From Lysobacter terrestris (lineage in GTDB: Bacteria; Pseudomonadota; Gammaproteobacteria; Xanthomonadales; Xanthomonadaceae), in NCBI RefSeq assembly GCF_014489475.1, contig NZ_CP060820.1, positions 3,054,001 to 3,118,000 on the forward strand: a stretch of 64,000 nt of DNA, read 5' to 3'. Made by a program: the position numbers and the translations under genes. The notes beneath the pieces were generated by a model. That model was given only the letters and a program-made list of their open reading frames with translations, was not told where the DNA came from and searched no databases. Of the stretch, positions 21,513-42,358 are shown piece after piece. Each line of letters begins with the position of its first letter. Position 1 is the first letter of the stretch.

Positions 21513-22730
21513 TCAACCGGCGAGCTTGCTCCAGATGGTGAATCCGGAGATCCAGAACCCGAGCGTCATGCCGAGGTTGGTGAGCATGAAATTCAGCACC
21601 ACCCGGGTGACCCGGTTGTGGTACCAGCCGCGCACCGTCTGCGCATCGTGGCGCAAGGCGAGGAAGTCGCCGTAGGCCGGCTTGCGCCGCTGTGCCTCGA
21701 TCAGGGCGCTCACCGCGCCGACCGGAACGCCCGGGCGGAACGGCTTCAACGGCGCCACCAGCGCTGCCGCGATCACGCTGAAGGGATGGCCGCCGGCCAG
21801 CACGCAGCCCAGCGCGGCGAAGCCGCCGGTGAACAGCACCCATTGCATCAGCAGGTCGGAACCCGCCGCCCAGCCGCCGCGCCAGAAGCCCCAGCCGATG
21901 CCGGCGATGATCAACGCCATGATGCACAGCGTGATCCACGGGATCTTCCGCTTCGACTTCACCTGTTCCAGTTCGGTGCGCAGCGCTTCGGGCTCGCGCG
22001 TCTCCTCGCGCAGGTGCTTCGCCAGCCCCTGCAGGTGGCCGGCGCCGACCACGGCCAGCACTTCGCGCGCGTCGCCGTGCGTCTCGCGCAGGCGCGCCGC
22101 CATGTAGCGGTCGCGCTCGGCGATCACGCTTTCGTACAGCTCCGGGCTGCTGGTGGCGAATTCGCTGAAGCTTGCTTCGAGCATGTCGCCCTGCTTGAGC
22201 TTTTCGATGTCTTCCGCGCCCACTTCGTCGTCGGCGAACAGGCTTGCCACGAGGCCGCTGCCGAGCTTCATCCGGCCCCAGAAACCGAGCTTGGCGGCGG
22301 CGCGCTTGAAGGTCAGGCCGACTTCGCGGTCGATCAGGTGCACCGGCAGGTTGCGCTCGCGGGCTTCGAGCACGGCCTGCTTGAGCTCGGCGCCCGGTTC
22401 GATGCCCAGCTGCTCGGCGAGGCGGCGCTGGTAGGCGGACAGGGCGAGGTTGGCCGCGAACATCGCCACGCGCCCGGTGCGGATGACCTGGATCAGGTCG
22501 AGCTTGGCCAGCGCGTCCGGATCGGTGAGCGCCTGCAGCCGCGGCGGGTCGAGCTCGACCGCCACCGCGTCGTAGCGGCCGGTGCCGATGGCTTCCTTGA
22601 CCGCGTCGATGCTGGCGCGCGAGACGTGCGCGGTGCCCAGCAGGGTGTAGCGGACACCATCGCGTTCGACGACGGCGTGCGGTTGCGTGGCGAGGAAGTC
22701 TTCGGACGTTGCGGTGGCTTCAGCGGTCAT
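21513..22730 (-). CDS. TraB/PrgY-family membrane protein
   Basis: The 405-residue protein belongs to the TraB family (relatives: enterococcal PrgY, which limits pheromone activity, and eukaryotic TRABD). The N-terminal domain has the family motif GTAHVS near residue 33, an acidic ELDPPR motif and VVGAGHLQGL, which suggest a Tiki/EreA-like metal-dependent hydrolase fold. The C-terminal third has about four membrane segments (from residue 270 on). The bacterial function in this family is unknown. It is a single gene, convergent with the RND operon and sharing its terminator. Confidence 0.85.
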   Translation of the reverse strand: MTAEATATSEDFLATQPHAVVERDGVRYTLLGTAHVSRASIDAVKEAIGTGRYDAVAVELDPPRLQALTDPDALAKLDLIQVIRTGRVAMFAANLALSAYQRRLAEQLGIEPGAELKQAVLEARERNLPVHLIDREVGLTFKRAAAKLGFWGRMKLGSGLVASLFADDEVGAEDIEKLKQGDMLEASFSEFATSSPELYESVIAERDRYMAARLRETHGDAREVLAVVGAGHLQGLAKHLREETREPEALRTELEQVKSKRKIPWITLCIMALIIAGIGWGFWRGGWAAGSDLLMQWVLFTGGFAALGCVLAGGHPFSVIAAALVAPLKPFRPGVPVGAVSALIEAQRRKPAYGDFLALRHDAQTVRGWYHNRVTRVVLNFMLTNLGMTLGFWISGFTIWSKLAG

Positions 22731-22839
22731 CGATGAATTCGGCTTGCTGCGGAACGCCGGAATCTCGCCGGCGGCCGCGCAGCATAGTCGTTCCGGTGCG
22801 CCGTTGCCCGCGACTGCGGGCCATCCGGCGCAGGCGCGT

Positions 22840-23778
22840 TCAGGCGAAGCCGTAGGGCAGGTTGGGGCTGGAAACCACGCGTTCGCCGACCTCCTCGCCG
22901 CGCAGGAAGCGCAGGGCCGCCGCGATCACGCCGGCGTCGTCGGCGATGCGGTTGTGGCCGAGCCCGCGGGTGCTGAGCAGGCGGGAATCGCGCCAGAAGC
23001 GGGCGTAGCGCTCGCCTTCCGACCAGGGCACTTCGCGGTCCTCCACGTCGTGCACGATCAAGGCTGGACGGCCGATCTTCTGCACGTTGTTGTGCGCCTG
23101 CAGTTCGTCCGCTTCGAAGCGCATGGCCTGTTCGAACCGGGCGAACATGCGCCGGCCGAGGTAGGCGGGCAGCCAGACCAGGCTGGAGAAACGCTCGACC
23201 GCGGCGAGCGGGTCGGCGGCCGGCGCGATCAGGATCGCGCGTTGGGCCTCGAGTCCGCGCGCCAGCGCCAGCGCGCTCGCGGCACCGCCGAAGGAATGTC
23301 CGATGAGAGCCGCGGCCGGGCCGAAATGGCGGGCGACTGCGAGCAGGTGGCAGGTGAAATCCGGCAGCGTGGTGTGGGTGCCGCTGCTGCGGCCATGTCC
23401 GGCCTGGTCGAAGGCGACCACCGCATAGCCGGCGGCGCGCAGCGGCTGCAGCCACGAGGCCACGCGCGTGCCGTGGCTGGACCAGCCATGCGCGAACAGC
23501 ACGTACGGCTGCTGGCGTGGATCGCCCCAGACGTAGGCATGGATGCGGGTGCCGTCGACGTCGAGTTCGAGTTCGGCCGCACCGAGCGTGGGTGCGGCCA
23601 GCGCACGCGAGCGCGACGAGGCGAACGGCCGGGTGAACAAGTGGGCGGCCTTGCGGACAACCGCTTCCGGCGCCAGCCAAGCGCCCAGCAGGAACTCCAG
23701 CCGCGTGGCATAGAGCGGCAAAACATTACGAACGATCGTGCTAATCGAGGGCGTGCGATTGGAGATGACAGCGGCCAT
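22840..23778 (-). CDS. Alpha/beta hydrolase
   Basis: The 312-residue protein is a cytoplasmic alpha/beta hydrolase. Nucleophile Ser162 is in GHSFGG, the oxyanion motif is FAHGWSSHG, the likely acid is in HDVEDREVP and the catalytic His is in GLGHNRI. The start at 23778 is supported by GAGGT seven bases upstream. It lies 22 bases after tetR on the same strand, so the two form a likely operon. Codons 12-17 contain an exact inverted copy of an 18-base sequence in the tetR promoter, so the regulator may also bind inside this gene. Substrate unknown. Confidence 0.87.
   Translation of the reverse strand: MAAVISNRTPSISTIVRNVLPLYATRLEFLLGAWLAPEAVVRKAAHLFTRPFASSRSRALAAPTLGAAELELDVDGTRIHAYVWGDPRQQPYVLFAHGWSSHGTRVASWLQPLRAAGYAVVAFDQAGHGRSSGTHTTLPDFTCHLLAVARHFGPAAALIGHSFGGAASALALARGLEAQRAILIAPAADPLAAVERFSSLVWLPAYLGRRMFARFEQAMRFEADELQAHNNVQKIGRPALIVHDVEDREVPWSEGERYARFWRDSRLLSTRGLGHNRIADDAGVIAAALRFLRGEEVGERVVSSPNLPYGFA
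23728..23745. promoter_or_regulatory. Candidate intragenic TetR operator
   Basis: ACGAACGATCGTGCTAAT here is the exact reverse complement of 24410-24427, just upstream of tetR. It contains the self-palindromic core ACGATCGT. It lies within codons 12-17 of the hydrolase gene. Confidence 0.6.
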
Positions 23779-23800
23779 GGCAGATACCTCGCGGGGGAGT

Positions 23801-24400
23801 TCAGGCGGAGTTGGCGACGAACCAGCGCTCGACAGCCTGCTTGCCGAGCTTTTCAACCTGTTCCTGGCCAAACAGGCCGGACTGGTGATGGACGTTGAGG
23901 GCGATCGCGTACAGCTCGAAGGCGTACTGCTCGGTGTCGCCGGGGCGCAGGTGGCCTGCGTCGATCGCCAGCTGGATGGCACCGCGGAGGATGTCGACCC
24001 AACTCTGTTGTTGGCGTCGAACCTGCTCGCGCAGCGGGCCGGGGCGGTCGTCGTATTCGCTGACGGAGGCCACCAGCACGCAGCTGCCCGTGTTGCTGTG
24101 CACCCAGTTGAACCAGTTGTGCATCATCGCCCGCAACCGGGGCAGGCCACGCGGTTGGGAAAGGGCGGTAATGAAGGTGGCTTCACCGAAGCGCCGCGCG
24201 GCGGATTCGAGGACGGCCAACTGCAGATCCTCGCGCGAACCGAAATGGGCGAAGACGCCGCTCTTGGACATGCCCACCGCCTGGGCCAGCGGGCCGATCG
24301 ACAGGCCCTCCACGCCCGAGAACCGGGCGATCTCGTAGGCCCGGTCGATGATGGCCTCGCGGGTGGCAGCGCCCTTGGTGGTGGCGGTGAGTGCGTTCAT
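23801..24400 (-). CDS. TetR-family transcriptional regulator
   Basis: The 199-residue protein has an N-terminal TetR helix-turn-helix (about 12-58: AIIDRAYEIARFSG..., GMSKSGVFAHFGSREDL) and a ligand-binding C-terminal domain of the type ending in LQLAIDAGHL. It is probably an autorepressor: a 20-base imperfect palindrome with perfect outer arms lies 13 bases upstream of its start. It precedes the alpha/beta hydrolase gene by 22 bases, and the hydrolase is the obvious target. The inducer is unknown. Confidence 0.9.
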   Translation of the reverse strand: MNALTATTKGAATREAIIDRAYEIARFSGVEGLSIGPLAQAVGMSKSGVFAHFGSREDLQLAVLESAARRFGEATFITALSQPRGLPRLRAMMHNWFNWVHSNTGSCVLVASVSEYDDRPGPLREQVRRQQQSWVDILRGAIQLAIDAGHLRPGDTEQYAFELYAIALNVHHQSGLFGQEQVEKLGKQAVERWFVANSA

Positions 24401-24409
24401 GGCGGGGAA

Positions 24410-24433
24410 ATTAGCACGATCGTTCGTTCGTGC
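24410..24433. promoter_or_regulatory. Candidate TetR operator at the tetR promoter
   Basis: GCACGATCGTTCGTTCGTGC (24414-24433) has perfect GCACGA/TCGTGC arms and the core ACGATCGT. The first 18 bases from 24410 recur exactly, inverted, at 23728-23745. Position just before the tetR start fits autorepression. Confidence 0.7.
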
Positions 24434-24470
24434 GTGACCGTTCGTCGGTCAGGTGCCTGAGCCGCCGGTT

Positions 24471-24998
24471 TCAGGGCGAGGGCGGCCCCTCCGAACCCGG
24501 CCCCAGCGCCCGCTGCATGAACACCGTGTCCAGCCAGCGCTCCTGCTTGCGGCCGATCCCGTCAAACGTCCCGACCAGGCGAAAACCAAAACGCTCGTGC
24601 AGGCGTATCGATGCGGCATTCGCCGATTCGCCGATCACCGCGACCATCTGCCGGAACCCGCGGGCCTCGCACTCGGTGACCAGTCGCCCCAGCAACGCCG
24701 ATCCGACGCCGCGGTTCTGCACTCCCGCCGCCACGTACACCGAGTTCTCCACCGTGAAGCGGTAGCCGATCCGGGCCCGGAAGGCGCTGGCATACGCATA
24801 GCCGGCAACGCGGCCATCGACTTCGGCGACGAAGTAGGGGTAGCCGGCGCCGACAAGGCCCCGCATCCGGCGCAGCATCTCGGCTTCGTCCGGCGTGTCG
24901 TATTCGTAGGTATTGACGAAGTCGCGCACTTCGACCGCGTAGATCGAAGTGATCGCGGGGATATCGGCCTCAGTCGCGGGGCGAACCAGCAGCGTCAC
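24471..24998 (-). CDS. GNAT-family N-acetyltransferase (phosphinothricin acetyltransferase-like)
   Basis: The 175-residue protein is a GNAT acetyltransferase starting LLVRPATEADIPAIT. It contains the acetyl-CoA loop around VQNRGVGSALLG and the LHERFGFRLVGTFDGIGRK segment typical of the PAT/Bar-like subgroup. I choose the GTG at 24998 because homology begins there; an ATG 18 codons earlier would overlap aguB. It follows aguB by 16 bases, so it is probably the last gene of the agu unit. Its substrate is not evident; a link to polyamine acetylation is possible from context only. Confidence 0.85.
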   Translation of the reverse strand: MTLLVRPATEADIPAITSIYAVEVRDFVNTYEYDTPDEAEMLRRMRGLVGAGYPYFVAEVDGRVAGYAYASAFRARIGYRFTVENSVYVAAGVQNRGVGSALLGRLVTECEARGFRQMVAVIGESANAASIRLHERFGFRLVGTFDGIGRKQERWLDTVFMQRALGPGSEGPPSP

Positions 24999-41932: not shown

Positions 41933-42358
41933 ATGGCGCTGGAGCGCACCCTTTCGATCATCAAGCCCGATGCCGTCGCCAAGAACGTCATCGGCGAAAT
42001 CTATTCGCGCTTTGAGAAGGCCGGCCTGAAGGTCGTCGCCTCCAAGATGAAGCAGCTCTCGCGCGCCGAAGCCGAAGGCTTCTACGCCGTGCACCGCGAA
42101 CGTCCGTTCTTCAACGCGCTGGTCGAGTTCATGATCTCCGGCCCGGTGATGATCCAGGTCCTGCAGGGCGAAGGCGCCGTGCTGAAGAACCGCGACCTGA
42201 TGGGCGCCACCAATCCGAAGGACGCCGCGCCGGGCACCATCCGCGCCGACTTCGCCGACAGCATCGACGCCAACGCCGTGCACGGTTCGGACTCGCTGGA
42301 GAACGCCGCGATCGAAGTCGCGTACTTCTTCCCGGCGACTGACGTCTACGCCCGTTGA
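41933..42358 (+). CDS. ndk: Nucleoside diphosphate kinase
   Basis: Ndk balances nucleoside triphosphate pools by phosphate transfer. The 141-residue protein matches bacterial Ndk throughout, with the phospho-His motif NAVHGSDS in the C-terminal part and the N-terminus [14 protein letters not shown]. The ATG at 41933 follows CCGGAGATATCCC, giving a GGAG site at good spacing. It leads the conserved ndk-rlmN-pilF-rodZ run. Confidence 0.96.

Follow-up and report, generated by a model that had tools for sequence, protein, structure and literature searches.

The window analyzed here, a stretch of 64,000 nucleotides of the Lysobacter terrestris genome (contig NZ_CP060820.1), contains a tetR gene followed in the same orientation by a gene for an alpha/beta-hydrolase, together with the candidate regulatory features collected in Table 1. 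The tetR product falls into the TetR family by its match to PF00440 (27.7 bits, cut-off 24) and into the TetR_C_13 branch by its match to PF16925 (88.4 bits, cut-off 27); in the PDB, the TetR profile matches best to 2hyj, a putative TetR whose function is unstated. A GNAT acetyltransferase gene adjoins tetR at 24471-24998 (-), and its best NCBIfam match, ArsN1 family B, scores 146 bits, under the cut-off of 210.

Table 1. Genes and candidate regulatory features of the predicted tetR-hydrolase operon (positions in the window).
Feature	Position	Strand	Remarks
alpha/beta-hydrolase	22840..23778	(-)	312 aa; Hydrolase_4 / Abhydrolase_6; co-oriented with tetR
O3, candidate operator core AGCACGATCGTTCG in the hydrolase gene	23729..23742	(-)	codon 13 to part of codon 17; A/T flanks to about 23726-23745
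tetR-hydrolase gap, 22 bp	23779..23800	(-)	GAGGT Shine-Dalgarno-like stretch
tetR	23801..24400	(-)	199 aa; TetR_N + TetR_C_13
-10 hexamer TAATTT of the tetR promoter	24408..24413	(-)	sequence reading; TGC in front makes it an extended -10; tetR ATG 7 nt further on
O1, candidate operator core AGCACGATCGTTCG at the tetR promoter	24413..24426	(+)	conserved flanks widen to about 24410-24428; inside the 17-bp spacer
-35 hexamer position	24431..24436	(-)	CACGCA, poor in the window; TTGAAA/TTGACA-like in many relatives
O2, CCGACGAACGGT, possible degenerate second site	24437..24448	(-)	immediately ahead of the -35 position; start of ACGAACGGT 18 bp upstream of the corresponding letters in O1

A pattern search of the 64-kb window located the 18-mer ATTAGCACGATCGTTCGT exactly at 24410-24427 (+) and 23728-23745 (-), which confirms the inverted pair reported in a preliminary description of this DNA, and with up to 3 mismatches there is no further match within the window. 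That description considered a chance pair very unlikely, and shuffled sequences at the same tolerance agree, giving a mean of 0.03 matches in all. The second copy does occupy hydrolase codons 12-17, as had been stated, and reads ATT AGC ACG ATC GTT CGT, or ISTIVR. Throughout the 3.15-Mb genome there are exactly two exact copies, with one 3-mismatch match elsewhere, so that a dispersed repeat, a possibility raised in advance, could be rejected. The same description had proposed as the operator a 20-base palindrome with the arms GCACGA and TCGTGC. This palindrome is present at 24414-24433, but it is unsupported as the operator because relatives conserve another dyad, G-N-ACG-NN-CGT-N-C with A/T-rich flanks, centered at 24419/24420 and not at 24423/24424. 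The core that relatives share is A-G-N-A-C-G-N-N-C-G-T-N-C-G, again between A/T-rich flanks. A candidate third site in the window at 42097-42110 (one mismatch) was set aside as looking like chance; it lies within an ORF that presumably encodes a nucleoside diphosphate kinase. Matches at up to 2 mismatches numbered 478 genome-wide against 562 for a reversed control, i.e. they show no excess. Because one motif stands both at O3 and in the spacer of the tetR promoter, the two copies fit one protein, and there is strong support from conservation for O1 and O3 as candidate operators of a single TetR, O3 being placed within the first codons of the target gene.

We surveyed related loci for both sites. 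Relatives of tetR were found in 90 of 100 genomes; the 26 strong-match loci (L004-L029) were used and the distant TetR hits (L030-L033 and all those ranked lower) were left out. A second set comprised 80 loci (L034-L113), the best 80 of 583 confirmed. From the resulting 106 loci we dropped L034, L035 and L037, which had the same first 300 tetR bases, leaving 103, and then the duplicates L064 and L090, leaving 101; as loci were chosen by closeness of the TetR, in the 80-locus set via conserved HTH letters, those with diverged TetRs are missing from this number. AGCACGNNCGTTCG has 12 fixed letters, and the score of a site is the number of these that it matches; O3 was called present when a sense-oriented site scoring at least 10 lay no more than about 110 bp beyond the tetR stop. 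O3 is present in 57 of the 101 non-duplicate loci and absent in 44, comprising 23 with a hydrolase downstream and 21, mostly Burkholderiales relatives, with no such hydrolase found in the locus. Each of these 21 hydrolase-less rows (among L088-L112) has, 40-142 bp upstream of its tetR match, a site with no more than 3 mismatches; in 18 of them it is oriented opposite to O1, and L103 and L112 have two upstream sites. Four loci (L020, L049, L056 and L084) have a much more divergent hydrolase (E about 1e-24 to 1e-34) and keep O3 in the same place. At the level of the family, AGCACGAYCGTTCG occurs exactly in 112 of 297 genomes, compared with 17 of 297 for the reversed control pattern. It is found on both strands in 50 of the 112 and on one strand only in 62, in some of these since the second copy deviates (as in L012). 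In at least 43 of the 50 both-strand genomes, a pair of oppositely oriented copies is separated by 668-729 bp; among the matches listed, those of G155 and G286 are widely separated or fall on different contigs.

The 17-bp spacer between the -35 hexamer and the -10 hexamer (TATTTT/TAATTT) is filled by O1, and a palindromic putative operator thus overlaps the promoter of tetR itself, as expected of an autorepressed operon. The tetR start lies at most 12 nt from the -10 hexamer in 77 of 80 loci, and this proximity predicts a leaderless tetR transcript. By this reading of the promoter O1 is upstream of the predicted start and so outside the message, on which ground pairing of the inverted copies as RNA was rejected. 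At O2, at least 8 of the 9 letters of CGACGAACG are found in 21 of the 54 O3-containing loci with O1 in the usual orientation, compared with none of the 54 in a control stretch located 100 bp farther upstream. The form CCGACGAACGGT occurs in the clade around the window, and many other relatives have a better -35 instead. O2 may, from these counts, be a second, weaker operator. The upstream site of L016 is nearly a full second copy of operator and -10 (CGAACGGTCGCTCTATTTT), as if the promoter had been duplicated. In L028 (genome G002, of the same genus) tetR is split across two frames, by a recent break or a sequencing error, with both operator copies retained.

The core of O3 starts 35-76 bp (median 46) past the tetR stop in the 57 loci that have it, and in 46 of the 57 it is found at hydrolase codon 9 or 10, where the hydrolase start was taken as the first ATG or GTG at least 8 codons upstream, a choice that narrows the spread. 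A Shine-Dalgarno-like tetramer precedes the hydrolase in 54 of the 57 (a count without a control). The 60 bp upstream of the hydrolase are GC-rich, with 12-44% AT in 3-nt steps. A private hydrolase promoter ahead of O3 was rejected on the lack of an AT-rich stretch; a strict consensus promoter scan of 22700-24700 also returned nothing, which is weak evidence since it missed the tetR promoter too. With no promoter-like AT stretch ahead of the hydrolase, O3, if active, would act on readthrough, and it is indeed placed within the predicted transcribed region, about 690 bp past the predicted tetR start and in codons of the second gene.

Conservation within a coding sequence raises the question of what is conserved. 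If it were the peptide S-T-x-V-R of the hydrolase, the DNA match would be a by-product, and such a reading is served by the single reading frame throughout and the near invariance of S, T, V and R. The common frame, however, is explained by one origin, and the codons carry more than the peptide. They are nearly fixed as AGC-ACG-nnC-GTT-CGn, with AGC in 54, ACG in 57, nnC in 57 and GTT in 55 of the 57 loci, and with CGT in 31 and another CGn in 21 at the Arg position. Elsewhere in the same genes GTT accounts for 4.1% of 1106 Val codons and CGT for 9.5% of 1613 Arg codons. When 54 of the 57 hydrolases were aligned (three under 260 codons were dropped), codons 0, +1 and +3 of O3 took ranks 1-3 in codon invariance among 63 conserved degenerate columns; the R codon is unexceptional in this ranking (0.60) because its third base falls outside the core. 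The residue between T and V varies (28 T, 18 I, 7 N, 2 V and 2 S; n = 57) and its codon always ends in C, so the protein seems indifferent to that residue. Its counterpart preceding S is I in 27, N in 20, K in 8 and S or F in 1 each, and is written with the A/T-only codons ATT, AAT, AAA or ATA in 55 of 57, while A or T follows the CGn codon (position 15) in all 57. The exact core is found at O3 in 48 of the 57. The longest open frame differs from the O3 frame in two (L098 and L105), both of which still have an ATG in the O3 frame.

Hydrolases of loci lacking the site bear on the same question. STxV[RL] is absent from the first 30 residues of all 23 tetR-linked hydrolases without O3, including L051, which was probably read in the wrong frame and whose DNA also lacks the site (best 9/12). 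A paralogous hydrolase beside the operon in L006 is likewise without it (best 9/12, outside its start). Four more distant hydrolases (L140-L143; E 1e-56 to 1e-37), from genomes without a close tetR relative, reach 8-10 of 12; the 10/12 match lies far inside its gene, and a stop falls within two of the four matches. A site of 11/12 is present in L137, which lies at a contig end. The preliminary description had envisaged orthologs that keep the peptide without the DNA palindrome, and the alignment gave the converse, DNA that is kept while one residue varies. With rare codons fixed, the middle residue free, neighboring residues that change class and stay A/T-rich, and the motif missing from O3-less orthologs and a paralog, we rejected peptide conservation, which we regard as having almost no chance of being correct. 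O3 is most likely, on this codon evidence, a DNA operator within the coding sequence and not a protein motif. By the same token, what looks like a conserved N-terminal peptide motif of a protein family can in reality be a DNA site.

We reconstructed the history of O3 from a maximum-likelihood tree of TetR with 100 rows, L028 being omitted; its drawn root is a midpoint only. A well-supported branch (100/96) has all 79 rows with tetR and hydrolase on the same side; the 23 among them that lack O3 form one nested clade (100/96), mainly of Dyella, Rhodanobacter, Frateuria and Fulvimonas (mainly Rhodanobacteraceae). The TetR of the window groups with Luteimonas and Vulcaniibacterium loci. L024 has O3 and is placed elsewhere in the tree, though its genome family (f12) is that of some O3-less rows. 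The distribution of O3 needs two changes on this tree, and when the hydrolase-less rows are taken as the outgroup it fits one gain, which would have come with the tetR-hydrolase pairing, and one loss. Within the O3-less clade (L019, L022, L046 and others up to L087), positions 14, 19 and 20 of O1 are T in all 23 loci, and its flanks are stricter than in loci with O3. A stronger O1 might have replaced O3 there, as far as the letters go, or the clade might merely be younger. That the clade persists implies that O3 is not indispensable, and it offers a ready-made natural control.

Since O1 and O3 are near-identical in many genomes, O3 might also be a functionless relic of O1, left by local duplication or conversion, or a titration site without effect on the operon. 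Four MAG loci labelled Betaproteobacteria (L073, L078, L085 and L098) have O3, and in these both sites share the center AACGTT. Overall, the central dinucleotides of O1 and O3 mismatch within a genome at 0.72 compared with 0.93 when permuted, a value as low being reached in 0.16% of 5000 permutations with relatedness not removed; in the same comparison the flanks of O1 and O3 show no within-genome link. Against a relic stand the conservation at codon level across TetRs down to 44% identity with that of the window and the single loss on the tree, which together call for continued selection, and titration would need no fixed position. We consider an inert O3 very unlikely.

How, then, might two operators divide the work? 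The reading we favor, as somewhat better than an even bet, is that TetR at O1 represses initiation and TetR at O3 acts as a roadblock to elongation, silencing the hydrolase more tightly than tetR. The two genes would form one operon with a single promoter, which a TetR homodimer would repress at O1, a site whose position is observed. The same dimer would also occupy O3, where it is the DNA-level conservation that is observed. Polymerases that escape O1 would make the tetR message and stall some 30 bp past the tetR stop, mostly never entering the hydrolase. At the stall point, going by assumed footprint sizes, the ribosomes on tetR would just have terminated and the hydrolase start codon would be barely out of the polymerase; with no trailing ribosome at O3 the polymerase could not be pushed through. 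Rare leaky rounds would let the repressor replenish itself while the target stays off, and a ligand would free O1 and O3 together, so that the whole operon is read. Published work on LacI fits such a scheme in that low polymerase flux is described as favoring roadblocking, with least readthrough, and a trailing ribosome as helping RNAP past the repressor (PMC4132739); natural roadblocks, including LacI, CcpA and others, are the subject of a review (PMC10310618). More tentatively, and with the odds rather against us, we suggest that O3 is placed in the only ribosome-free stretch of the operon, from the tetR stop to the first hydrolase codons, and that a dimeric repressor would be an effective roadblock only there, because at any other place ribosomes trailing the polymerase would drive it past the repressor. 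Two observations do not sit easily with a roadblock operator: the covariation of O3 with O1 is weak, and O3 is flanked by more A/T on the side of a would-be antisense -10, which a symmetric dimer does not explain.

The preliminary description had left the choice between DNA looping and a roadblock. In the former, TetR on O1 and O3 would close a loop of about 690 bp over tetR and strengthen repression at O1 as in lac and gal. Two sites for the same protein within one operon would suit a loop, as would the spacing of 668-732 bp in 57 of 57 pairs, although the latter largely follows from the constant length of tetR. The 57 spacings gave no sign of helical phasing (at 10.4-10.6 bp their mean vector is about 0.12), even if loops of about 690 bp tolerate poor phasing. 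The O1-O3 spacing spreads (S.D. 16 bp) while O3 stays put with respect to the start of the hydrolase gene. TetR-family repressors are reported to bind a single palindrome as homodimers (PMC6637906). Looping is therefore unsupported and in our judgment unlikely; we lean to the roadblock because the position of O3 varies less relative to the hydrolase start and the tetR stop than relative to O1. The flank asymmetry noted above is accommodated by a further proposal, that O3 is also a repressed antisense promoter, so that an antisense RNA across the tetR/hydrolase junction would come under the control of TetR. Read towards tetR, O3 has TGC-TAATTT-like letters, like the extended -10 at O1, with TA at hexamer positions 1-2 in 45 of 57 copies, and A/T reaches 100 and 87% at positions -3 and -4 compared with 71 and 63% at the mirror positions 16 and 17. 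Yet the full TA...T is found in 22 of 57 copies at O3 compared with 37 of 54 at O1, the nearer flanks are A/T on both sides (98 and 100% at positions -2 and 15), as expected of an operator, and L015 and L026 have lost the hexamer TA and keep 11 of 12 core letters. An antisense promoter at O3 is in our estimate quite unlikely.

If the roadblock is correct, a single promoter and a single repressor would yield two levels of repression in one operon. Intragenic operators frequently lack an explanation or rest on a single case; the present one is almost invariant in the codons of the target gene in many genera. Placement in the ribosome gap, if true, would provide a general way of splitting repression inside an operon, with a leaky repressor gene and a silent target, and the operator would stay written in the target codons for as long as the lineage exists.

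The arrangement can be set beside several known systems. In lac (O1/O2) and gal (OE/OI), one operator lies at the promoter and a second in downstream coding sequence, and the LacI/GalR-type proteins loop. We know of no looping by TetR-type dimers. The tetR-hydrolase operon differs from both in that no phasing was found; it shares with them the promoter operator and the second one inside a downstream coding sequence. LacI is also described as a roadblock (PMC4132739). For C.Kpn2I, a roadblock acting from a site inside the coding region is reported, in which the regulator bound in the coding sequence stalls elongating RNA polymerase, as proposed here (PMC6237814); C.Kpn2I is, however, a restriction-modification controller with the site in its own gene and an effect on the neighboring promoter too, whereas O3 lies in the second gene of an operon. 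Closer by family are RolR and AtsR of Corynebacterium, TetR-family proteins with an operator downstream of the transcription start for which a roadblock has been proposed (PMC9210681). These are described with a single operator at about +40 to +105, whereas here the second site lies about 690 bp downstream, among the codons of the second gene, and is accompanied by a promoter operator. RutR and PA3973 are reported as TetR-family proteins that bind inside genes (PMC9736018), as is putatively the case here, although their sites are many and described as of unknown use, unlike one site in one target gene that is conserved across genera.

Two TetR-type regulators of Xanthomonadales look like different proteins by their published descriptions, TfmR being set apart by its gene context and the PsrA-like Smlt2053 by motif and context. 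Several of the hydrolase-less tetR relatives stand before a protein with an MxQYxPPxRDM-like start, which we take to be that of an acyl-CoA dehydrogenase. The 21 hydrolase-less relatives, mostly from Burkholderiales, may bear comparison with FadP, described as a beta-proteobacterial TetR-type fatty-acid regulator (PMC5343134). Among the papers listed from the open-licence PMC literature, judged by titles and abstract openings, there was no description of the present operon. Roadblocks by TetR-family proteins and scattered intragenic sites of the family are already known; what appears to be new, relative to the literature searched, is a TetR-type operator that is conserved across genera inside the coding start of the partner gene, paired with one at the promoter and traceable by codon choice.
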